This document shows positions 1 through 10,479 of a stretch of 34,752 nucleotides of DNA, one piece after another. Both the position numbers and the translations under genes were made by a program. The notes beneath the pieces are model-generated. The model was not told the DNA's origin, did not search any database, and worked only from the letters and a program-made list of their open reading frames with translations. The DNA is from Candidatus Bathyarchaeota archaeon. Lineage in GTDB: Archaea; Thermoproteota; Bathyarchaeia; Bathyarchaeales; Bathycorpusculaceae. The DNA lies in assembly GCA_903901015.1 (NCBI GenBank), contig CAIUPH010000072.1, positions 1-34,752 of the forward strand. The letters are read 5' to 3'. Position 1 is the first letter of the stretch; each line of letters starts with the position of its first letter.

Positions 1-137
1 AATGCGTTGCCATATTGCCTCTTTGGTGTGGGCGGATAGGTGTTTGCCTTTGTCGTCAACTTGGTGAAAGAATAGGCATGAAATTAGGAGAGTTTGAAGA
101 GAAGAAAGACCCAAATAGTCAAACTTCACATAGGTGT

Positions 138-321
138 TCTCGTAAGTGTTTGCAGGGTTTGGCTTAAAAGTTGGAAAGAAGAAGAAGGTTGAAAAATTTG
201 CGCTTCTTCTTTAGTTATCTGGTTGCTTCTTGCTACAACATTGCATTGCAATCGGTAGAACAAAAACAATGTGTTTTCCAGATTTTTGCCGTTGTTGTTC
301 TTCTTCTCGTAAGTGTTTGCA
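138..321 (+). repeat. Partial copy of the hairpin / HTH-fragment repeat family
   Basis: This stretch shares linkers and stem-loops with the two long repeats at 2121-2551 and 5100-5508. The 17-base word TCTCGTAAGTGTTTGCA occurs here twice (138-154 and 305-321), again at 5202-5218, and with a mismatch near 2234-2249. The first copy is followed, as in the long repeats, by a stem AAAGAAGAAG (175-184) with CTTCTTCTTT (203-212). A second, imperfect stem pairs AGAACAA-type sequence near 257-269 with TTGTTGTTCTT (292-302). Read as protein, the linker gives RKCLQGFGLKV, which resembles the C-terminal end of the small HTH protein at 5515-5697. No complete gene is seen in 1-411. Confidence 0.7.
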
Positions 322-411
322 ATCATTCTTGACTCAACCAGACACATCCTTTTTGCGAGAACAAGAAGATTGATAGAGTAGAAATGCGAAATAACAATAA
401 GTGGAAGGTTC

Positions 412-1809: not shown

Positions 1810-2120
1810 CTCCTCTAAAGAGGTTAAGTGTATATGCTGATTAGTGTTTGTGTAACCAGGAGTTTGAACTCTCACAAACCATACTCTGAGGAGGGCTTCC
1901 ACCCCTGTACCCCAATGAGCGCACGTTACTGAATCCTTTCAACCCTAGCGCTTGCTTGGATTCAGGTTTGAAAATAAGAATTTGGAAAAATATGAACCAA
2001 AGAAAGCACAGCAACAGCAGGCTCCAACACGCAAACCCTCAAAAACATATTCTACAAAACCACCCAAACCACTAAACTATAACCTACACAACACGCTATG
2101 CAAACCAAGTTTCTTCGCGT
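1810..2120. other. Gene-free spacer with several inverted repeats
   Basis: No gene is seen here. Three inverted repeats are visible: CCTCTAAAGAGG at 1812-1823 just after the hydrolase stop; GTTTGTG paired with CACAAAC around 1844-1879, enclosing GAGTTTGAACTC; and CTGAATCC (1929-1936) paired with GGATTCAG (1958-1965). None is followed by a clear T run, so they are not obvious terminators. The last 100 bases are A/C-rich and lead into the repeat at 2121. Confidence 0.5.
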
Positions 2121-2551
2121 ACAAGAAGTAGTCGTCTAGTTGAAATTTGCAGCAACGACTACTACTACCGGAACCCGATTAAAGTATTACTTAAAGAAGA
2201 ACAGCACGTGTGTTGCAGCTGTTGATGGTTCTATTCGTAAGTGTTTGCAGCGGTTTGGCTTAAGAGTTGGAAAGAAGAAGAAGAAGAGTGTTTTTTTCTA
2301 TCTTCTTCTTCTTTTAGTTAATTGGCGGCTCAGAAAATACTTAAGCGCTTTGTCTGAGAAAAAAAGAACTTGGTTTTAGGGAAAAACCCGTTCTTCTTCC
2401 AAATAGAAGAAGTTGTTGTTCTAGGTGAAAATTTTAGGGTGAACAACTAGTACTTCTAACTTGACTTTGCCAAAAGGAAGTTATGCACCAAAAGATTAGG
2501 TGCCTCAGATTAGAAGTAGTCGGCGCTAAGGGGTATAGGACGACTACTTCT
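2121..2551 (+). repeat. Long hairpin repeat, copy A (left flank of the AbiE-like pair)
   Basis: This copy aligns along nearly its whole length, in the same orientation, with 5100-5508. It contains a chain of stem-loops with triplet-run arms: AGTAGTCGT (2127-2135) with ACGACTACT (2155-2163); AAAGAAGAAGAAGA (2271-2284) with its exact complement (2301-2314); GTTGTTC (2415-2421) with GAACAAC (2441-2447); and AGAAGTAGTCG (2512-2522) with CGACTACTTCT (2541-2551), a perfect 11-bp stem. Between stems are conserved linkers that translate as fragments of an HTH C-terminus such as IRKCLQRFGLRV. The stem sequences differ between copies while pairing is largely kept, which suggests selection for structure. 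Confidence 0.85.
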
Positions 2552-2557
2552 ATAGCC

Positions 2558-2665
2558 ATGCCCAAGGAGTTACCGAGTATTGGATCAGATGATTGCTTTG
2601 ATGAATGGGATTTGAGTGTTGGTGAGGCCAATAATTTGTTTCGAACTGTAACTGGAGGCCACTAA
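2558..2665 (+). pseudogene. Degenerate start of the small MPEELP-type HTH gene
   Basis: Directly after the 11-bp hairpin of copy A an ATG opens a 35-codon frame beginning MPKELPS. This matches the MPEELP start of the intact 60-residue gene at 5515-5697, which also lies directly after the equivalent hairpin. After the first seven or so residues the similarity is lost and no helix-turn-helix is readable. I take it as a decayed copy; a rearranged short gene cannot be excluded. Confidence 0.5.
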
Positions 2666-2666
2666 T

Positions 2667-2742
2667 AACAACACTAAGGCTTTGGGTGAGGTCATTAAGC
2701 GTGTAGGCAGCTTAATGATGCTGTTGTTGCGTCGCGAAGCGA
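2667..2742. repeat. Compound hairpin downstream of repeat copy A
   Basis: An outer stem AACAACA (2667-2673) with TGTTGTT (2722-2728) encloses an inner perfect 8-bp stem CATTAAGC (2693-2700) with GCTTAATG (2710-2717). A small stem TCGC-GAA-GCGA follows near 2732-2742. The GTT-type triplet arms resemble the stems in the long repeats. The remaining bases to 2827 hold no gene. Confidence 0.5.
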
Positions 2743-2826
2743 GGTACGCGGGTTAGTAAATTCATTATTTTTATTTCCATCATTATTAGTATGGTTGGTG
2801 TTTGTTGCTAAGGAAAAGAGAAACAG

Positions 2827-2835
2827 ATATAATTA
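2827..2835 (+). promoter_or_regulatory. Putative TATA box for the AbiE-like pair
   Basis: The A/T run ATATAATTA lies about 25-33 bases upstream of the GTG at 2860. That is the distance expected for an archaeal leaderless transcript starting at or near the start codon. No Shine-Dalgarno sequence precedes the GTG, which fits. Assigned by position and composition only. Confidence 0.4.
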
Positions 2836-2859
2836 TGGCTAGCGATATTACGGTTACAT

Positions 2860-4086
2860 GTGGTAGCTGTGGAAACAAGCTTAGAAGCATATATTTCTAG
2901 AGAGCTCATGAGAGTCTTTAAGGGCCACACTCTTGTTGCCACGAATGAAACTCTTCCAGGGCGTGTAGAAATTGACTTTCATTTCAAAGACAATAACGGC
3001 ATGGACGTTTTTGTTGAAGTATTGTCTAGCAAAATAGATCGCTCCAAGTTAAGTAACATTCTTGATCTTTATTCTTCGATCTCCAATATCTATCCAAGCT
3101 TGAAAAAATTTGAGCTCGTAATAGTAGGCCCTGGTGTTTCTTTGTCTACGAGAAGGGAGCTTGAGCGGCTTTCCATTAGACTTCTAACTTTTAAAGACCT
3201 GGGCATAACCCAAAGAAGACTCGGCAGGATTCAAGAAGATCGCAAGCAGATGCAAATTCGCAGTCTATCTCCGAATGAAGCAAGATTGGTAGTTAAGTGG
3301 GAAACAGAGAAGAAAACCATTATTCGTGCAGCTGATGTTCAAAACGCTCTAAATCGCAGCCTTGATTACGCATATGTTCTTCTGCACAGCTTAGAGAAAA
3401 AACGATGGCTTGAAAGAATAAAAAAGGGTACCTACCAGTTTGTACCGGCAGGGTATGGTGTGTATCCAAACAAGGTTGCGCCCGCTAATGCTTTTGCTGT
3501 GGGAGCTGCTTTTGTTAGTCCTTACTACTTTAGCTATCATACATCAAATAGCCATTATAGTTTTACCACTCAAATGCCTTTTACTTATTTTGTGGCCACA
3601 ACTAAAAAGAAGGCGAATGTTGAATGGCAAAGCGTAGTATTTGATTTTGTCACACTATCCAAGCAGAAGTTTTTCGGTTATCGCACTACAAAAGTTTTTG
3701 ATGTTGACGTTTGTATGGCTGAGCCTGAAAAATCGATTGTTGACTCTTTTGATAAGCCGCATTATGCAGGGGGCATTGAGCAACTCGTCAGGATTGTTTG
3801 GAGGGGGCTTCCCCAGATTAATCATGAGCGATTGGTGAATTATGCGTTGAGGATGAAGTCTCATTCTTTGGTTCAGCGTCTGGGTTTTGTTATTGATTTT
3901 CTTGCAAAAGAAGGTCTTGTAGAACCGTTTTCCCAAGATCTTAGAACATTGCTGGCTAGTTATGTTGGAAACACTGTAGTTTATCTTGATAAGCGAAAAC
4001 CGAAGAAAGGGACATTTTCTTCGGACTGGAAAATTATGAATAACGTTTCTATAGAACAATTACTAAGTGAAATTGAGGTTCGGTGA
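2860..4086 (+). CDS. AbiEi-like antitoxin with an N-terminal nuclease-fold-like domain
   Basis: The 408-residue product is the probable antitoxin and autorepressor of a type IV AbiE-like toxin-antitoxin pair. Residues about 138-195 form a helix-turn-helix ending in WLERIKKGTYQFVPAG, as in AbiEi winged helices. Residues about 205-345 match the AbiEi C-terminal layout, including AEPEKSIVDSF and HSLVQRLGFVIDFL. Residues about 30-115 look like a PD-(D/E)xK-type domain (TLPGRVEIDF, then VFVEVLSSK), but the usual ExK is not intact. The start is GTG; an earlier ATG at 2835 lies in another frame and gives only a 21-codon peptide with CGSCG. The stop overlaps the next gene in GTGA. The antitoxin role is from family and context; the extra domain's role is unknown. 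Confidence 0.8.
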   Translation: MVAVETSLEAYISRELMRVFKGHTLVATNETLPGRVEIDFHFKDNNGMDVFVEVLSSKIDRSKLSNILDLYSSISNIYPSLKKFELVIVGPGVSLSTRRELERLSIRLLTFKDLGITQRRLGRIQEDRKQMQIRSLSPNEARLVVKWETEKKTIIRAADVQNALNRSLDYAYVLLHSLEKKRWLERIKKGTYQFVPAGYGVYPNKVAPANAFAVGAAFVSPYYFSYHTSNSHYSFTTQMPFTYFVATTKKKANVEWQSVVFDFVTLSKQKFFGYRTTKVFDVDVCMAEPEKSIVDSFDKPHYAGGIEQLVRIVWRGLPQINHERLVNYALRMKSHSLVQRLGFVIDFLAKEGLVEPFSQDLRTLLASYVGNTVVYLDKRKPKKGTFSSDWKIMNNVSIEQLLSEIEVR

Positions 4087-4982
4087 GAGCATTGTTGGAG
4101 AGAAAATTTGTTGATTTCTATGCAAGATCTTCTATAGTTCCTTTGGAAGTTGCAGAAAGAGATGTTGTTCTAACTTATGTTTTGAAAATTCTTTCCGAAG
4201 GCGTCTTAGCGAAGCTTTCCTTTAAAGGAGGGACCTGTTTGAAAAAGCTGTTTTTCGGAGGGAGCGTTAGTGGTAGATTTTCTATGGATCTTGATTTTAC
4301 CAGCGCCGGTATTTCTGTTGAAGACCTCAAGAAGAAGCTTATGGAAACATTGAACGATAAAGAATTTTATGGTATAAAATTCAAGATTGAGGAAGATAAC
4401 ATTAGAGAAGGGTTTGGTAAGGAAAACGAGTCTTATGTGGCCGACATTAGCTACGTTCATCAATGGAATTCTTCAGATTTTATGTTAGAGGTTAGCTATA
4501 GAGAAAGCCCAATTTTACCTCAAGCTGCATTGTTCCAAATTGAGGAAATGTATTTTAAGTATCTGGAATTTTCGACTTTTCCGATAAATTGTTTACAAAA
4601 AGAAGAAATGTTGGCGGAAAAAATAAGGGCGGCTTTTCAGAGGATTCGAAGCCGTGATTTATATGATCTTTATCTATTTTCAGAAAAAAACATTGACAAG
4701 GCTAAATTGAAGAAGCTTGTTGTACTCAAGTGTTGGAATGTTCATGAGCCTTTTAACCCTGATGTGCTTTTTGAAAAAATATCTAAAGCCGAATATGACT
4801 GGGAAGACCTTGAACGCCTGGTCAGAAGAAAGAAACTGCCTCCATCAACCACAATCATAGAAAAAGTAGTTTCAGAGTACTCCTTTCTGAAAAACCTAGA
4901 CAGTGATCTATGTAAAATCGTTAAAGACTCCAAAGTACACAAAGAACAAGTCTTCGTAACAACCCTCAAGAAATCGCTATAA
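4083..4982 (+). CDS. AbiEii-like nucleotidyltransferase toxin
   Basis: The 299-residue product belongs to the AbiEii/MenT nucleotidyltransferase group, toxins that transfer nucleotides to cellular targets, tRNA in the studied MenT cases. The sequence shows FKGGTCLKKLF (GGT at 49-51), RFSMDLDF with the paired aspartates D69 and D71, then MLAEKIRAA (K180) and RSRDLYDLY (D192, D195). These are the expected nucleotidyltransferase positions in the expected order. It starts at GTG, overlapping the antitoxin stop by four bases, so the pair is probably translationally coupled. Base composition is A/T-rich, and the pair sits between two long homologous repeats, which suggests acquisition as a cassette. 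Target and activity are not shown. Confidence 0.87.
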   Translation: MRALLERKFVDFYARSSIVPLEVAERDVVLTYVLKILSEGVLAKLSFKGGTCLKKLFFGGSVSGRFSMDLDFTSAGISVEDLKKKLMETLNDKEFYGIKFKIEEDNIREGFGKENESYVADISYVHQWNSSDFMLEVSYRESPILPQAALFQIEEMYFKYLEFSTFPINCLQKEEMLAEKIRAAFQRIRSRDLYDLYLFSEKNIDKAKLKKLVVLKCWNVHEPFNPDVLFEKISKAEYDWEDLERLVRRKKLPPSTTIIEKVVSEYSFLKNLDSDLCKIVKDSKVHKEQVFVTTLKKSL

Positions 4983-5099
4983 CCTCAAGCCAATTGTTGA
5001 AACTAACGCGTTAAGATTAATGTCTCTCTTGTCTTTATGAAAAACTTGTCTGGCCCTGTATTTTGGGAGCTCCTATCCCCTACTTTTTTCAAGTTCTCA

Positions 5100-5508
5100 T
5101 CAAGAAGTAGTAGTCTCAACGCTGTTAGCACCGACGACTACTACCAAAGCTTGCCAAAACTGAAAGAACAACAACACGTGTGTTGCCGCTGTTGATGTTC
5201 TTCTCGTAAGTGTTTGCAGGGTTTGGCTTAAAAGTTGAAAAGAAGAAGAGTGTTTTTTTCTATCTTCTTCTTTTAGTTAATTGGCTGCTCAGAAAATGGT
5301 TACGCTCTTTGCCTGAGAAAAAAAGAACTTGGATTTTAAGGAAAACCCGTTCTTCTTCCAAATAGAAGTAGTTGTTCTAGGTGAAATTTTAGGGTGAACA
5401 ACAACTTCTATCTTCACTTTGCCAGAAGGAAGCTATGCGTCAAAAGATTATGCGTCTCAGATTAGAAGTAGTCGACGAAGAGAAAAAAACGCTTCGACTA
5501 CTACTTCT
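5100..5508 (+). repeat. Long hairpin repeat, copy B (right flank of the AbiE-like pair)
   Basis: Direct-orientation partner of copy A. Stems seen: AAGAACAACAAC (5164-5175) with GTTGATGTTCTT (5191-5202), one mismatch; AAAAGAAGAAGA (5238-5249) with its exact complement (5263-5274); AAGAAC (5323-5328) with GTTCTT (5349-5354); AGAAGTAGTTGTTC (5364-5377) with GAACAACAACTTCT (5396-5409), one mismatch; and AGAAGTAGTCGA (5464-5475) with a right arm at 5494-5508 carrying one extra TAC. Linkers translate as HTH pieces, for example RQKIMRLRLEVV just before the last stem. Stem lengths differ from copy A by whole triplets in several places. Confidence 0.85.
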
Positions 5509-5514
5509 TTGGTT

Positions 5515-5697
5515 ATGCCTGAGGAGTTGCCTATTGTTGAGGAGGCGCTTAAGGATCTTGTTGAAGCGAAAACTCCGCTATCTGTTGTTGCTAAAAAGTT
5601 GGGTGTTTCTGAGGAGTCGGCGCGTGCGAATATCCGCCGTCTTGGATTAGTAGTAGAAGAAGAACAGAGAAAAAAATGCGTGTTCATCTTCTTCTGA
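5515..5697 (+). CDS. Small helix-turn-helix protein of the hairpin repeat family
   Basis: The frame from the ATG at 5515 encodes 60 residues starting MPEELPIVEEAL. Residues about 19-43 (LSVVAKKLGVSEESARANIRRLGLV) read as a clear helix-turn-helix, so DNA binding is likely. The last 20 or so codons run into another triplet hairpin: AGAAGAAGAAC (5655-5665) with GTTCATCTTCTTCT (5682-5695). The tail EEEQRKKCVFIFF is therefore encoded by the stem-loop. The frame is open further upstream (to 5419), but the ATG fits the position of the MP-ELP starts in the other copies. It could be a real regulator of the repeat or a relic; I cannot tell which. Confidence 0.55.
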   Translation: MPEELPIVEEALKDLVEAKTPLSVVAKKLGVSEESARANIRRLGLVVEEEQRKKCVFIFF

Positions 5698-5715
5698 GTT
5701 AATTATGCCTAAGAG

Positions 5716-5818
5716 TTGCAAGGGGTAGATAGGCCTAGAAGCCAATGCAACGCAAGTAGTAGTCCGCGCCGTTTGCGGCTGGTCAACTACTACCAAATGC
5801 AACCTAAACCCCTTGCAA
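5716..5818. repeat. Nested compound hairpin between inverted HTH units
   Basis: A perfect 10-bp outer stem TTGCAAGGGG (5716-5725) with CCCCTTGCAA (5809-5818) encloses a perfect 8-bp triplet stem GTAGTAGT (5756-5763) with ACTACTAC (5786-5793), which encloses CCGC (5764-5767) with GCGG (5775-5778). An imperfect TTGAT/ATCAA hairpin around the palindrome CCGAATTCGG follows at about 5819-5857. The block lies between the plus-strand HTH unit and the minus-strand one, forming the centre of an inverted arrangement. Confidence 0.7.
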
Positions 5819-5854
5819 GTTGATAATGACCGCTCCGAATTCGGCTGGTTATCA

Positions 5855-6115
5855 TCAAGTAGCAATGCGCTCTAAGACATAGAACCCCTTGTAAGGCATG
5901 AACAAAAAAAAGAACTCTTTTTTCCGTTGTTTATTAGAAGTTGTTGTGGTGTGAATTTGCCGCACAACAACTACCAGCTTGAGACGATTAATTTTCATCT
6001 TGAGCCTTGCAGAAGATTTACCGAAAAACCCCGCGATCTCACTAAGCCTTTTATGCTCCTGCACCATCGCGCGAAGCTACTTTTCCTCATCAACGCTCGG
6101 CAACTCCTCAGGCAG
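5855..6115 (-). pseudogene. Inverted, broken copy of the small HTH gene
   Basis: Read on the minus strand from 6115, one frame gives LPEELPSVDEEK, then a single TAG, then LRAMVQEHKRLSEIAGFF and ARLKMKINRLKLVVVV. This aligns over its whole length with the intact product at 5515-5697, including the MPEELP start and the LGLVV end. The ATG is replaced by CTG and there is one in-frame stop, so it is a pseudogene. As in the other copies the LVV end runs directly into a triplet hairpin: GTTGTTGTG (5940-5948) with CACAACAAC (5963-5971). Downstream codons continue to a stop at 5855. The A/T-rich 6118-6155 next to it has repeated TATAC words but no gene. Confidence 0.65.
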
Positions 6116-6182: not shown

Positions 6183-7097
6183 TTATTCCACAAACTGCTC
6201 AAGATACTGAATTATCAAGCCATAAGCCTCAGCGCCATCGGGGCCAAACCTGTTGTTTGCTCGGTCACACCCAATTAGAACTTCTCCGCCAAATTCTCCA
6301 ACAGGTTCATTGAACTTAATCCTGAAAACACATCGAACCACTTCGCCGCTACAAGATTGAAAAGTCAACAAAGGATATTTCACCCCTGGCAAATGCAAAT
6401 CGTATTTTTCGTCAGCTCGGGCTTCAATGATAAAGTCTTTTGTTTCTTCAAGCCCAAGAAGACTCTGCAAAAGCGAACCTTTGTAGAGGGGAAAACACGA
6501 TTGAACCTCGCACTCAGCTTTCCTTATCACCTCTACAATCTTCGAGGCTAAGGTATCTCTATCCAAGAGTTCAACACCTAACGCCTCGGCATCGAGCCTT
6601 GCTTGCTGAGAAAAATACGCTGACGATACAACGAGCGCTCTTTGACATTCGCAGGCACGCTTTGACTCCGACGATTTTAAAACGATGGAGTTTGGGGCTC
6701 TGTTGGTCGTCGGATAACTTTTGACGTAAATTGCAATTTTCTCGCCGTCCTTAGCAACCACAAAGTTAACGCCTAAATCAACAGGGTATTTTTCTGGGAG
6801 GATTTCATAGTTTAATTCTTCAAGCAGCCATTTTGTAAAATGTTCAAGTTCCATTTCCGAAAGGCTCTCAACTGAATAAACACTCGTTTTTGGAGACGTT
6901 TCCAATTCTTCGGTTTTTTCTAAATTTGGTTCTGCTTTGATTTCTTTTAAATCAAATTCTTTTTCTATCCTTGCAGCTAATTCCTCTGCTTTATCCAGTG
7001 GAATCTGCAGTTTCTCCGATAGGAACCCAGCTATGTCGATTTGCGGATACTGTTCAATGATTTCTTTAAAGAAGCCGCTAAACTTGTGGTGGCTCAT
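6183..7097 (-). CDS. Mrr-like restriction-endonuclease-fold protein (third gene of helicase operon)
   Basis: The 304-residue product has an N-terminal helical part (1-55), a charged linker, and a central domain at about 82-190 with the layout of Mrr-type endonucleases: EHFTKWLLEELNYEI, VDLGVNFVVAKDG, IAIYVKSY, then ALVVSSAYFSQQARLDAEALG and VELLDRDTL. In active Mrr enzymes the metal site is D...(E/Q)xK; here the second Asp position reads N111, with D107 nearby, and the last motif is Y124-V-K126, so catalysis may be altered or lost. The C-terminal 100 residues are unfamiliar. ATGA overlap with the upstream gene indicates one operon. A role in recognising or cutting foreign DNA with the helicase is inference. 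Confidence 0.65.
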   Translation of the reverse strand: MSHHKFSGFFKEIIEQYPQIDIAGFLSEKLQIPLDKAEELAARIEKEFDLKEIKAEPNLEKTEELETSPKTSVYSVESLSEMELEHFTKWLLEELNYEILPEKYPVDLGVNFVVAKDGEKIAIYVKSYPTTNRAPNSIVLKSSESKRACECQRALVVSSAYFSQQARLDAEALGVELLDRDTLASKIVEVIRKAECEVQSCFPLYKGSLLQSLLGLEETKDFIIEARADEKYDLHLPGVKYPLLTFQSCSGEVVRCVFRIKFNEPVGEFGGEVLIGCDRANNRFGPDGAEAYGLIIQYLEQFVE

Positions 7098-8479
7098 TTT
7101 ACTGCTCCTTTACCTTTGTTTTTGGCGGCGTGTTTGGGGCATAATTGCCGTTTAAACTCGTCGGTGTATGAGAGGTTAAGTTTTGAGAAGACTTTTCCGC
7201 ATACGTCGCAGAGTCCATAATGGCTGATACATACGCTTGAGTTGTCATGGCTACATTTGAATTCCAGCAGCCGACTGTGCCTTTTTCCGCAGACTGCACA
7301 CGTAAAACCTGAGTCATGTGCAAAGTATTCATGCAAAGTTTCATCAAAAGTTAAAGCAGCTTTCTTTGAGTAGAATTTTCCGGTATCGATGGATTGCCTG
7401 ACGCAGTTTTTGCAAACATAGAGCGAATCCTGCGTTGCGTAACCCTCAGAGAAGGCTTTTCGGCATATGGGGCAAGTGACTTCTGAAGGGTAACTTATGC
7501 CTAAGACCAAAGAGGAATGCATGGTTGAGTTGTTGTCAAGTGTTAATTCCAGTTTAACCCTAGAAGTGTTAATTACGAGCAGGTTGACTAGTTTTACAGC
7601 TACGTTGGTTGTGAAGGATTCTTCTTCCCGTTTAAGAAGCGCCTCATGGTTAACATGCCATTGTTGAACGTCAAAATCGTGTTTTCTCGAAATTACTTTT
7701 TCGCGGCGCTCCTTTCTAAGTCTCTTATCGAAGCTCCTCAGCTTAGATTTTTTCTCTTTAGCAAGCTGTAAATCAAAAAGAACCAGTTTTTCCTTGAGAA
7801 TACCGCCCAATTTTTCTTCGGCAACCTTTTTGAGGTTATCAAAAACTTCAGCTTCGAGCTTTGCCTTAAAATCTTGAATCGCTATCTCTTCATTGCTTAT
7901 TCCATTATCTTCATTTAATTCTCCAACCCTGACAACACTGCCATCCTCGCCCACTATGATTGTGAGTGTTTCTTCGTTTTTGGGTCGCAGTTTATTCTGG
8001 AAAACTATGGAGTAGAAGAATTGGAAGAATCGAACAGATTCTTTTTTGATAACCTTCACTGAAGTGATTTTTCCATTGTTTATTTTATGGCGGCAGGGCG
8101 GAGATTTCAAGCATACACTAAACGTTTCTTCCCCAAGGGTTATTTTGTCGCAGTCGTCACAGGCAAAAGGCGAATCTCTAAAGTATCTTTTCGCCACTGC
8201 TTCAAAACTTTCCTTTGGGTTAAACGAAACCTGACACAAAACACCCTTTTCCAGGCATTCTTTGAGTATTTGCTGGAACGTTGGACTCCCTGGTGTGATG
8301 AGGGGTATTTTCTTTTCTCGGGACAAAGCAGGCAGATAAGTGTATTCTACTGCATCTGTTTTGCCTGGATAGGTTACTGTGAAAACCTCGTCTGATTCTT
8401 CAGTTAACGCTCCATCCCTTGATTTGACGTAGGATTTGATGAACTGGTGAATTTTTGTGTCAGAATATTTCGTACTCAA
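7094..8479 (-). CDS. Multi-zinc-ribbon, coiled-coil protein of unknown function (second gene of helicase operon)
   Basis: I do not recognise this 461-residue protein. It has an N-terminal cysteine group (C107, C110, C123, C129), a long charged helical middle (about 195-290), and a C-terminal half rich in zinc-ligand pairs: CPIC (336-339) with CKNC (356-359), CAVC (394-397) with C409/H411, C417/H420, CDVC (424-427) and C447/H450. Three or more zinc modules are therefore likely. The start is TTG, giving a TTGA overlap with the helicase stop; its own stop overlaps the nuclease-like gene by ATGA. The context suggests a nucleic-acid-binding adaptor between helicase and nuclease, which is inference. 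Confidence 0.7.
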   Translation of the reverse strand: MSTKYSDTKIHQFIKSYVKSRDGALTEESDEVFTVTYPGKTDAVEYTYLPALSREKKIPLITPGSPTFQQILKECLEKGVLCQVSFNPKESFEAVAKRYFRDSPFACDDCDKITLGEETFSVCLKSPPCRHKINNGKITSVKVIKKESVRFFQFFYSIVFQNKLRPKNEETLTIIVGEDGSVVRVGELNEDNGISNEEIAIQDFKAKLEAEVFDNLKKVAEEKLGGILKEKLVLFDLQLAKEKKSKLRSFDKRLRKERREKVISRKHDFDVQQWHVNHEALLKREEESFTTNVAVKLVNLLVINTSRVKLELTLDNNSTMHSSLVLGISYPSEVTCPICRKAFSEGYATQDSLYVCKNCVRQSIDTGKFYSKKAALTFDETLHEYFAHDSGFTCAVCGKRHSRLLEFKCSHDNSSVCISHYGLCDVCGKVFSKLNLSYTDEFKRQLCPKHAAKNKGKGAVK

Positions 8480-10479
8480 TCAAGGACCCCTTGCGTGAAT
8501 TTTTCTGATAACTCCTGATTTTTCCTTGAAACATTCAAGTCATTGGCTAGTTTTTCAAGTTCCTTTTTCATGTCCAGACGGGAGTTGCTTCTGAGCAAAA
8601 TTTCAACGATGGTTTTCTGTATGTCTTGGGATCCTTCTTTTAATTCGGCTAAGACCGTTTCCATTTTGCCGATTGTCATCGTGAATAACTCGATTTTTTG
8701 GTAGAGAATGTGGAGAACGTAGTCGTCGATGGTGTCTTTGACGCTTAAGTTGAAGATTGTGACATCGCGGTCTTGTTTAAACCTGTGGATTCTGCCTATT
8801 CGCTGTTCAATTTTCATGGGGTTCCAATGCAAATCATAATTGAACATTATGCAGCAGTTCTGCAGGTTCAAACCTTCAGCTGCCGCGTCGGTTGCGACTA
8901 AATATTTTATTTCGCCACTTTTGAAGTCTGCAATAACTTGGTCTCTTTCCGCTTGATTCATATCACCCAAATAGACAGCGGCTTTCCCGAATTCCGCCTC
9001 CAAAATTTCTTTGATTTTATGCGCTGTAATCTTGCGTAGGCAAAATATCAACGCTTGCTCATTTGGAATTTCGTGAAGAACGTTTCTTAGCAAATCCAGT
9101 TTTGCACCCTTAACTTTCTCCGCCATTGCGATTAAGTTGTTTGCGACTTCAGCCTCCATCGGGAACCGCTGCTGTCTTTTCTTTAACGATTCGATGGCGG
9201 CAAACGGTGAACTTGAGAAGGACTGCTGAAGAGTAATAGCTTGAAATACCAAAATTGCGTTGCTTTGGGATGCACTGATTCTTCTGTTCGGGTTCTCCGC
9301 CATCAAAGTTTCTATTGTCTTGTAATGGTTGTTACTCATGTCTCGCAGGTACTCGGTTGCTTGGTCAATGAATTCACGTTCGTCTGCGTTTGCTTCAAGT
9401 GTTCTTGAGTCTACACACCGCTTTGTAAATGGGATGCCTGTTTGTTCTCTGCGTGTACGGCACATTACATCACGAAGAGTCTGCCGTAGTTGAAATACCT
9501 CTTCAGATCTAACAACCCGGCTTTTTGCATCTTCAGCAAATCGGTCAACAAATGAGCGTTCACTGTCAAGAAGCCCCGGCTGGATTAAATCAACAATACT
9601 GTAGAGGTCAGTTAGCTTATTGCAAAGAGGCGTAGCCGTGAGCAGAAGGAAATGGTTTTTTCTAAGGTTAGAAAGGTAACCTCTGCCTTTGCTATGGGTA
9701 TTTCTGAATGCGTGCGCCTCATCAACTACAATTAAATCCCAAGTTCGATTTGCAAGCTCACTGTATTTTCGGGCTAAAAGGTTATGTGAGCAGATTATTC
9801 GGTTATCGGTCTTGAAATCCACGTGTTCTCGCGGGTTATTAGCTATCGAAAAGACTTCTCCGAATTTTTCAGACATCTCAGTTTTCCATTGAGTTAAAAG
9901 GCTTTTAGGCGAAATGATGAGGATTGAGTTAATTTCCTCTCTCAGAAGCATCTCTTTCATTATGATGCCGGCTTCGATTGTTTTTCCCAAGCCCACTTCA
10001 TCGGCGAGAATAGCGTTTCCGTTCATGTCGTTTATTACTTGGAGCGCAGTCTGCATTTGAAAATTGTAGGGAACCAAAGTTGTTTTTATAGCATCCAAAG
10101 CGATTAAGCTGTCGATTTTGCCCGTGTGTTTAATTTGCTGCGCTTCTAAGTTAAGCGTAAATTTAGTGAAGGGCTGAAACTTTTTTGTTTGAATCAAATC
10201 TTTTATGTTGTGGGGATCAGAAAAACTGCAGGTGTACTTGTGCATGGTTTTTTTTCCTGCAGGGGTTTGTTCTTCAAACTCGCACGATGCTGTTTTCTCG
10301 ATTAATTTTTCGTTTGTCTTTTTAGGGTTTTTTTTCTTAGATTTTCCAATTGTTGGTTTTTGTTCATTGACGACGGATGGTTGGTTACCGCATTTTTCAA
10401 TGACATTACCGTTTGAATCGTCTGTTGATGAATAAGATTGCCGGCACTCGCCGCAGTTGGCTTTGAAGTTTACAGGCAA
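8476..10479 (-). CDS. SNF2/RapA-type DEAH helicase-like ATPase (first gene of operon)
   Basis: The 667-residue product is an SNF2-family double-stranded DNA translocase. Motifs: Q-type lead-in near 140, Walker A DEVGLGKT (160-167), DEAH (253-256), LLLTATP (278-284), motif V ATDAAAEGLNLQ (529-540) and motif VI QRIGRIHR (559-566). The closest layout is the HepA/RapA-like group used in many prokaryotic defence systems. An N-terminal CGEC (9-12) with C30 may bind zinc. The start is TTG: the frame is closed by a TAG about 25 bases upstream and no ATG is available, and a TATA-like element lies 27-38 bases away. It leads an overlapping three-gene operon with the zinc-ribbon and Mrr-like proteins. 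Confidence 0.9.
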   Translation of the reverse strand: MPVNFKANCGECRQSYSSTDDSNGNVIEKCGNQPSVVNEQKPTIGKSKKKNPKKTNEKLIEKTASCEFEEQTPAGKKTMHKYTCSFSDPHNIKDLIQTKKFQPFTKFTLNLEAQQIKHTGKIDSLIALDAIKTTLVPYNFQMQTALQVINDMNGNAILADEVGLGKTIEAGIIMKEMLLREEINSILIISPKSLLTQWKTEMSEKFGEVFSIANNPREHVDFKTDNRIICSHNLLARKYSELANRTWDLIVVDEAHAFRNTHSKGRGYLSNLRKNHFLLLTATPLCNKLTDLYSIVDLIQPGLLDSERSFVDRFAEDAKSRVVRSEEVFQLRQTLRDVMCRTRREQTGIPFTKRCVDSRTLEANADEREFIDQATEYLRDMSNNHYKTIETLMAENPNRRISASQSNAILVFQAITLQQSFSSSPFAAIESLKKRQQRFPMEAEVANNLIAMAEKVKGAKLDLLRNVLHEIPNEQALIFCLRKITAHKIKEILEAEFGKAAVYLGDMNQAERDQVIADFKSGEIKYLVATDAAAEGLNLQNCCIMFNYDLHWNPMKIEQRIGRIHRFKQDRDVTIFNLSVKDTIDDYVLHILYQKIELFTMTIGKMETVLAELKEGSQDIQKTIVEILLRSNSRLDMKKELEKLANDLNVSRKNQELSEKFTQGVLD

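Follow-up and report, generated by a model that had tools for sequence, protein, structure and literature searches.

The repeat locus

The window considered here, 34.7 kb long, is contig C72 of the archaeal genome G000 (2.05 Mb), which was compared with a set of Candidatus Bathyarchaeota MAGs. Hairpins were scored at +1 for a match and -1.5 for a mismatch, with a cut-off of at least 10 in the window. Sixteen reach this cut-off and nine of these lie within positions 2100-6115, against 0.57 predicted when that stretch is shuffled with a first-order Markov model; all five of the window hairpins scoring 12 or more are found there. Six window hairpins folded as single-stranded DNA have energies of -6.3 to -12.3 kcal/mol, with z scores of -2.5 to -6.4. 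An earlier sequence-only reading had described stem-loops with arms made of GTA, GTT or GAA triplets, which this clustering of the strongest hairpins bears out; a fourth arm type, CAA, at 5164-5202 had been missed. The same reading placed codons for the end of a helix-turn-helix (HTH) domain ahead of the stems, and these are indeed present: LRLEVV at 2496-2519 and 5449-5472, LGLVV at 5641-5655, FGLKV at 5221-5237 and, on the minus strand, LKLVVVV near 5972-5990. Much of the repetition arises because two copies of some 440 bp, 2121-2583 and 5100-5540, are 82-84% identical. They flank an AbiEi/AbiEii gene pair (Table 1).

Table 1. Hairpins, gene relics and intervening genes of the repeat locus
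Position	Strand	Feature	Basis or match
137..367	+	Array block A, at contig start: GAA-type hairpin 175-212, degenerate CAA-type hairpin ~252-305, HTH-end relics	
2124..2166	+	GTA/GTC-type hairpin, first in array block B	Hairpin scan
2189..2237	+	Degenerate CAA-type (Gln/Cys) hairpin	Counterpart of 5164-5202
2271..2314	+	GAA-type hairpin after HTH-end relic SIRKCLQRFGLRV	Hairpin scan, ssDNA fold
2404..2458	+	GAA/GTT-type hairpin	Hairpin scan
2474..2581	+	TerS relic KEVMHQKIRCLRLEVVGAKGYRTTTSIAMPKELPSI: HTH end, hairpin linker, core start; hairpin 2511-2552	73% over 30 aa to IMG/VR TerS
2860..4086	+	AbiEi-like antitoxin (type IV toxin-antitoxin), outside the unit, between arrays	Below curated cut-offs
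4083..4982	+	AbiEii-like nucleotidyltransferase toxin, outside the unit	E 4e-25
5107..5144	+	GTA-type hairpin, first in array block C	Hairpin scan
5164..5202	+	CAA-type hairpin	Matches KEQQQ...CCCST linker of proviral TerS
5238..5274	+	GAA-type hairpin after HTH-end relic SRKCLQGFGLKV	
5362..5411	+	GTA/GTT-type hairpin	ssDNA fold
5426..5508	+	HTH-end relic KEAMRQKIMRLRLEVV with GTA-type hairpin 5464-5508	
5515..5695	+	Core start MPEELPIVEE and further HTH (to RRLGL at 5649), GAA-type hairpin 5652-5695	
5755..5794	+	Degenerate GTA-type hairpin	
5932..6115	-	Viral TerS N-terminus relic (LPEELPSVDEEK*LRAMVQEHKRLSEIAGFFGKSSARLKMKINRLKLVVVVRQIHTTTTS), hairpin 5939-5972	61% to IMG/VR TerS

Three of the window pieces (2474-2581, 5426-5695 and 5932-6115) are recognisable N-termini of a viral small terminase (TerS); the remainder consist of a hairpin alone or of one accompanied by a short HTH end. 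The pieces contain stops and frameshifts. In viral loci, the window matches the HTH-hairpin-LPSVEE segment of terS alone; the remaining genes of those loci are not clearly represented, and a decayed whole provirus was therefore rejected. A CRISPR array was likewise rejected, as the hairpins differ in sequence and a constant repeat is absent. Directly to the left of the arrays the plus strand encodes an aCPSF1-like Beta-CASP nuclease (412-1809), which also matches a Cas14/type VII model below its cut-off. Adjoining the arrays on the minus strand (6183-10479) are genes for an Mrr-type endonuclease, a 461-aa protein of unknown family and a DISARM DrmD-like SNF2 helicase, and these genes together with AbiE probably constitute a defence island.

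The HTH belongs to a TerS-like viral protein

Protein searches revealed that relatives of the HTH piece are proteins of about 150 residues in which the same HTH is followed by a linker and then by the motif LPxELPSVEE. Looking for the HTH in related archaea, as the sequence-only reading had suggested, led to a TerS-like family encoded in 39 of the 163 genomes of the order (full-length search). The TerS gene runs up to or into the start of the gene for TerL in 62 of 63 distinct viral copies and in most MAG copies with enough sequence. An alignment query recovered 65 loci of the family from IMG/VR, a first viral scan with a single TerS as query having given no match, and no relative was found among 50,697 phage records. 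One MAG copy lies on the same contig (JAAKEZ010000002) as BATPV1, a published Bathyarchaeia tailed provirus (PMC11705971). AlphaFold predicts an HTH at residues 9-46, a disordered linker (pLDDT below 50 at 52-61) and a helical core. Foldseek matched the HTH to the DNA-binding domain of GcrA (probability 1.00, 1.7 A) and returned no TerS structure; no Pfam or PHROG TerS model matched the family either, the hits being to HTH families and GcrA only. The assignment to TerS is therefore made from position, size and architecture. TerS sequences diverge strongly, and a match to a curated profile is not strictly a defining feature, but its absence limits how firmly TerS can be named.

The HTH is thus the N-terminal domain of a TerS-like family whose gene lies directly upstream of that for TerL, and these comparisons show the HTH-hairpin unit to be the 5' half of a terS-like gene found in tailed viruses and proviruses of Bathyarchaeota. 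Two proposals of the sequence-only reading change in consequence. The ATG opening 'MP-ELP', previously taken for a start, is an internal residue of LPxELPSVEE in intact relatives; since this motif opens the TerS core, 5515-5697 is a tandem-repeat joint, a TerS core start fused to a new HTH, and not a separate 60-residue gene. The joining of HTH codons and hairpin in one mobile or regulatory unit stands in the evolutionary sense, given that the stem follows the HTH and not the core and that compensatory changes occur. It does not stand as an independent small gene or an autonomous mobile unit, the protein piece being the DNA-binding domain of viral TerS. A stand-alone small HTH gene and a transposase were rejected on the same grounds.

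A palindrome encodes the TerS linker

Of 128 distinct TerS genes, 97 have a near-perfect palindrome (score of at least 9) as the DNA coding for the stretch that links HTH and core, the figure for the IMG/VR subset being 59 of 63, whilst no hairpin of that score occurs in 357 other segments of equal length taken from these terS genes. The palindrome usually exceeds what the amino acids require: when these were held fixed and the codons redrawn, 91 linkers gave p<=0.05 and 47 gave p<=0.005. Across the 4-6.5 kb covered at each of 54 viral loci, it is also the strongest hairpin in 50. Its two arms of 9-21 nt are separated by a spacer of 10-26 nt, and the stems are of three unrelated kinds, with GTN arms (Val/Thr), GAA arms (Glu-Lys/Ser) or CAA arms (Gln/Cys). 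Quick trees from short alignments imply, by parsimony, 24 changes of stem class on the core tree and 19 on the HTH tree. About 20 TerS genes, mostly with the signature KC[QK]RLGL, have no hairpin and still have TerL downstream, so the palindrome is not indispensable. Both the spacer and the whole palindrome range in length over more than one helical turn, which is odd for a rigid dimer site.

The sequence-only reading had remarked that pairing is kept whilst stem sequence varies and had called for folding and covariation of the copies; compensating changes were found once the terS stems of relatives were added. Across 44 distinct arm pairs of the GTN type, both sides have changed in 8 of 11 base pairs. 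The covariation score of these stems is 0.233, compared with 0.098 for shuffled pairs (0 of 500 reach 0.233) and at most 0.128 for slid structures. At the wobble position of the first valine codon, pairing with the threonine partner is intact in 38 of the 44, where independence would give 50%. Of 885 pairs, 6 are G-T mismatches and 9 are A-C mismatches; that the two are equally rare fits DNA better than RNA. The linker palindrome is maintained by selection at the nucleotide level.

Coupling of the stem to its flanks was examined by partial correlation in 51 hairpin-bearing sequences of less than 80% identity, using flanks of equal length and 300 permutations. Stem similarity is associated with HTH identity after removal of the core (partial r 0.33-0.35; 0 of 300 permutations), the last 14 HTH residues alone sufficing for the signal (0.34). 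With the adjoining core, after removal of the HTH, the values are 0.03-0.05 (p 0.14-0.27). Pairs with a similar HTH and a different core share a stem class in 99 of 126 cases, those with a similar core and a different HTH in 49 of 454. The stem therefore follows the HTH and not the core, as would be expected if a DNA-binding domain co-evolved with its target. Alternatively, recombination breakpoints could usually fall downstream of the hairpin and partly explain the link. That HTH and hairpin behave as one evolutionary unit is well supported.

Arrays of mixed hairpins in Bathyarchaeota chromosomes

Mixed-class arrays flank the AbiE toxin-antitoxin pair of the window on both sides. In G013, G022, G029, G107, G108 and elsewhere, GTN, CAA and GAA hairpins stand together in related arrays at a spacing of ~60-200 bp, and some arrays of other genomes align to the window at 70-91%. 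Further copies in G000 lie at C110:1-720, C111:13900-14030 and C39:14196-14496. In G068 there are eight dispersed multi-hairpin elements of ~300 bp (L143-L150) with the common right end CTTCTATGTTG, one module of which matches the TerS linker of the same genome (L064). Searches with GTN- and CAA-type patterns found TerS genes, TerS-derived ORFs and non-TerS sites and arrays, the sites having been inspected in part. Degeneration, in the form of stops and frameshifts, is common among the chromosomal copies, and there are hairpins at which no HTH can be recognised. Dispersal of the units is evident, yet no enzyme or insertion mechanism was found.

Two regularities were considered and set aside. 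Strict co-orientation of hairpins within arrays was not upheld, a CAA-type loop in one G108 array (L155) being reversed. An AbiEii fragment accompanies hairpins at G000:C39 also, but triplet hairpins lie near only 2 of the 24 AbiEii loci of the genus, so an AbiE cassette bounded by hairpins is not general.

Interpretation

The account we favour, at a little better than even chances, is that the 5' half of viral terS carries, in its palindrome, the cognate pac-like site of the protein, and that the window is a decayed mosaic of such units. The linker palindrome would be a candidate recognition site for the HTH encoded beside it and, judging from the sequence comparisons, is probably an address read by that HTH. 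Binding of the hairpin by its own protein, as the sequence-only reading had put forward, is a good hypothesis. TerS would assemble on this intragenic pac-like palindrome and headful packaging would then be started by TerL, with specificity domain and target palindrome moving together as one cassette. The window would hold no working gene, its units, of several specificities, having been captured from viral terS, duplicated and for the most part decayed; its array would be one of a family of multi-hairpin arrays scattered through the chromosomes of Bathyarchaeota. Such arrays, we infer, derive from pieces of terS that were subsequently amplified. Decay does not by itself explain mixed arrays common to different species. 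The arrays may be debris. Host arrays might instead gather the TerS-target palindromes of several virus groups, with GTN, GAA and CAA classes next to one another, acting as decoys that titrate the packaging proteins of many viruses or as island packaging signals for multiple helpers. This seems unlikely, and less likely than the location of pac in terS; were the multi-helper version true, an island such as the AbiE island of the window could be packaged by several viruses.

Several other explanations have to be weighed against a pac-like site in terS. A selfish palindromic element, RPE- or REP/BIME-like, might have inserted in frame into terS linkers and be present in intergenic arrays too. 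Hairpins without recognisable TerS flanks, multi-hairpin arrays in many genomes, the eight dispersed copies in one of them and mosaics 70-91% identical between species would all accord with this, and in-frame palindromes are known from Rickettsia, Wolbachia and Methanocaldococcus (PMC2996958). Against it, the palindrome has a constant place in a single viral gene and not in varied genes, its stem follows the HTH, the compensatory changes indicate drift at a fixed place and not recent insertion, and no transposase, target duplication or empty site was found; we regard a selfish element as rather unlikely. TerS might alternatively repress transcription of its own gene through the palindrome instead of starting packaging. 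Operators usually consist of an inverted repeat read by a cognate HTH, and the stem-HTH co-evolution would support this equally. The palindrome is nevertheless mid-gene, ~150 bp into the coding sequence, and a pac inside terS has direct precedent (PMC9611059), which makes an intragenic operator a still weaker candidate.

Lower again in probability is a hairpin in the terS mRNA which slows translation between the domains or regulates terS/terL. Its position at a domain boundary, the strong sense-strand folding of the window copies and the keeping of structure as sequence changes are what such a hairpin would show, but the coupling of stem and HTH would be unexpected and G-U is not in excess over A-C amongst the mismatches. 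The window has no Rfam match, and for this and the missing wobble bias an RNA element was rejected. It is very improbable that the palindrome is a functionless product of mutation, owing its origin and upkeep to template switching by which imperfect palindromes are corrected. Such correction would yield both perfect arms and compensatory changes, and the triplet-run arms may point to slippage; against this stand the confinement of the palindrome to linkers (97 of 128, versus 0 of 357 other segments), its persistence although stem class has changed, by parsimony, at least 19 times, and the tie between stem and HTH.

Relation to known systems

The pac site of P22 is located inside its TerS gene (PMC9611059) and that of SPP1 spans the start of its TerS gene (PMC4737164); both resemble the present case in that a cis-acting packaging signal lies within the gene for its presumed reader, an HTH protein. 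The P22 site is a 22-bp asymmetric sequence, however, whereas the putative pac-like site here is a coding palindrome whose sequence changes freely with the HTH. The Rickettsia palindromic elements, the palindromes of Wolbachia and M. jannaschii and the PARCEL repeats are also in-frame palindromic DNA with an unstructured product, but they occupy many unrelated genes or tandem surface repeats and not one place in one viral gene family. REP/BIME sequences similarly form dispersed mosaic arrays of several palindrome types outside genes, as in the Bathyarchaeota hosts, and their linked transposase is RAYT (REP-type Y1). The units described here differ in matching viral terS linkers and bearing HTH-end codons. 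REPs are mentioned in PMC10969869. Integron attC cassettes, defined by an integrase and attC core sites, came into consideration because in them too structure is conserved above sequence. The HTH is alike in sequence and fold to the CRISPR-repeat-binding protein Cbp2 (PDB 2lvs) and to the GcrA DNA-binding domain (5yiu). Cbp proteins bind repeat arrays, but CRISPR repeats are absent here and CRISPR adjacency is limited to G108, in which at least six GTN/GAA/CAA-class hairpins directly follow the last CRISPR repeat (L155, G108:C23, 1390-2010); there was no second case among the loci examined. A search of mostly open-access literature found no report of a TerS-linker palindrome or of such arrays.

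How small terminases choose their own genome is an open question. The mechanism of DNA binding by TerS is still unclear and controversial, specific binding in vitro being hard to demonstrate (2022 review, PMC9611059). Nearly 100 natural HTH-palindrome pairs which change together would permit direct tests of TerS recognition by swapping stems or domains, and are a likely route to sequence-based prediction of packaging sites in archaeal viruses that have not been cultured. The mixed arrays of host chromosomes may record past viruses or serve as defence.

Other loci bring TerS units or hairpins together with further genes and repeats. Tandem HTH-hairpin-LPSVEE units at L035 (G005:C47, 5208-6480) have long open frames running into ABC-ATPase-like sequence, and related ATPase-like sequence lies near a hairpin array in G068 (L148). 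At L036 (G018:C14, 164-2664) a full-length TerS without TerL adjoins an AbiE pair, with a second hairpin beyond AbiE, and this locus could be a satellite element. In G013:C12 a 176-bp repeat, 97% identical between its copies (L153 2010-2185 and L311 1684-1857), lies near both arrays of the contig.
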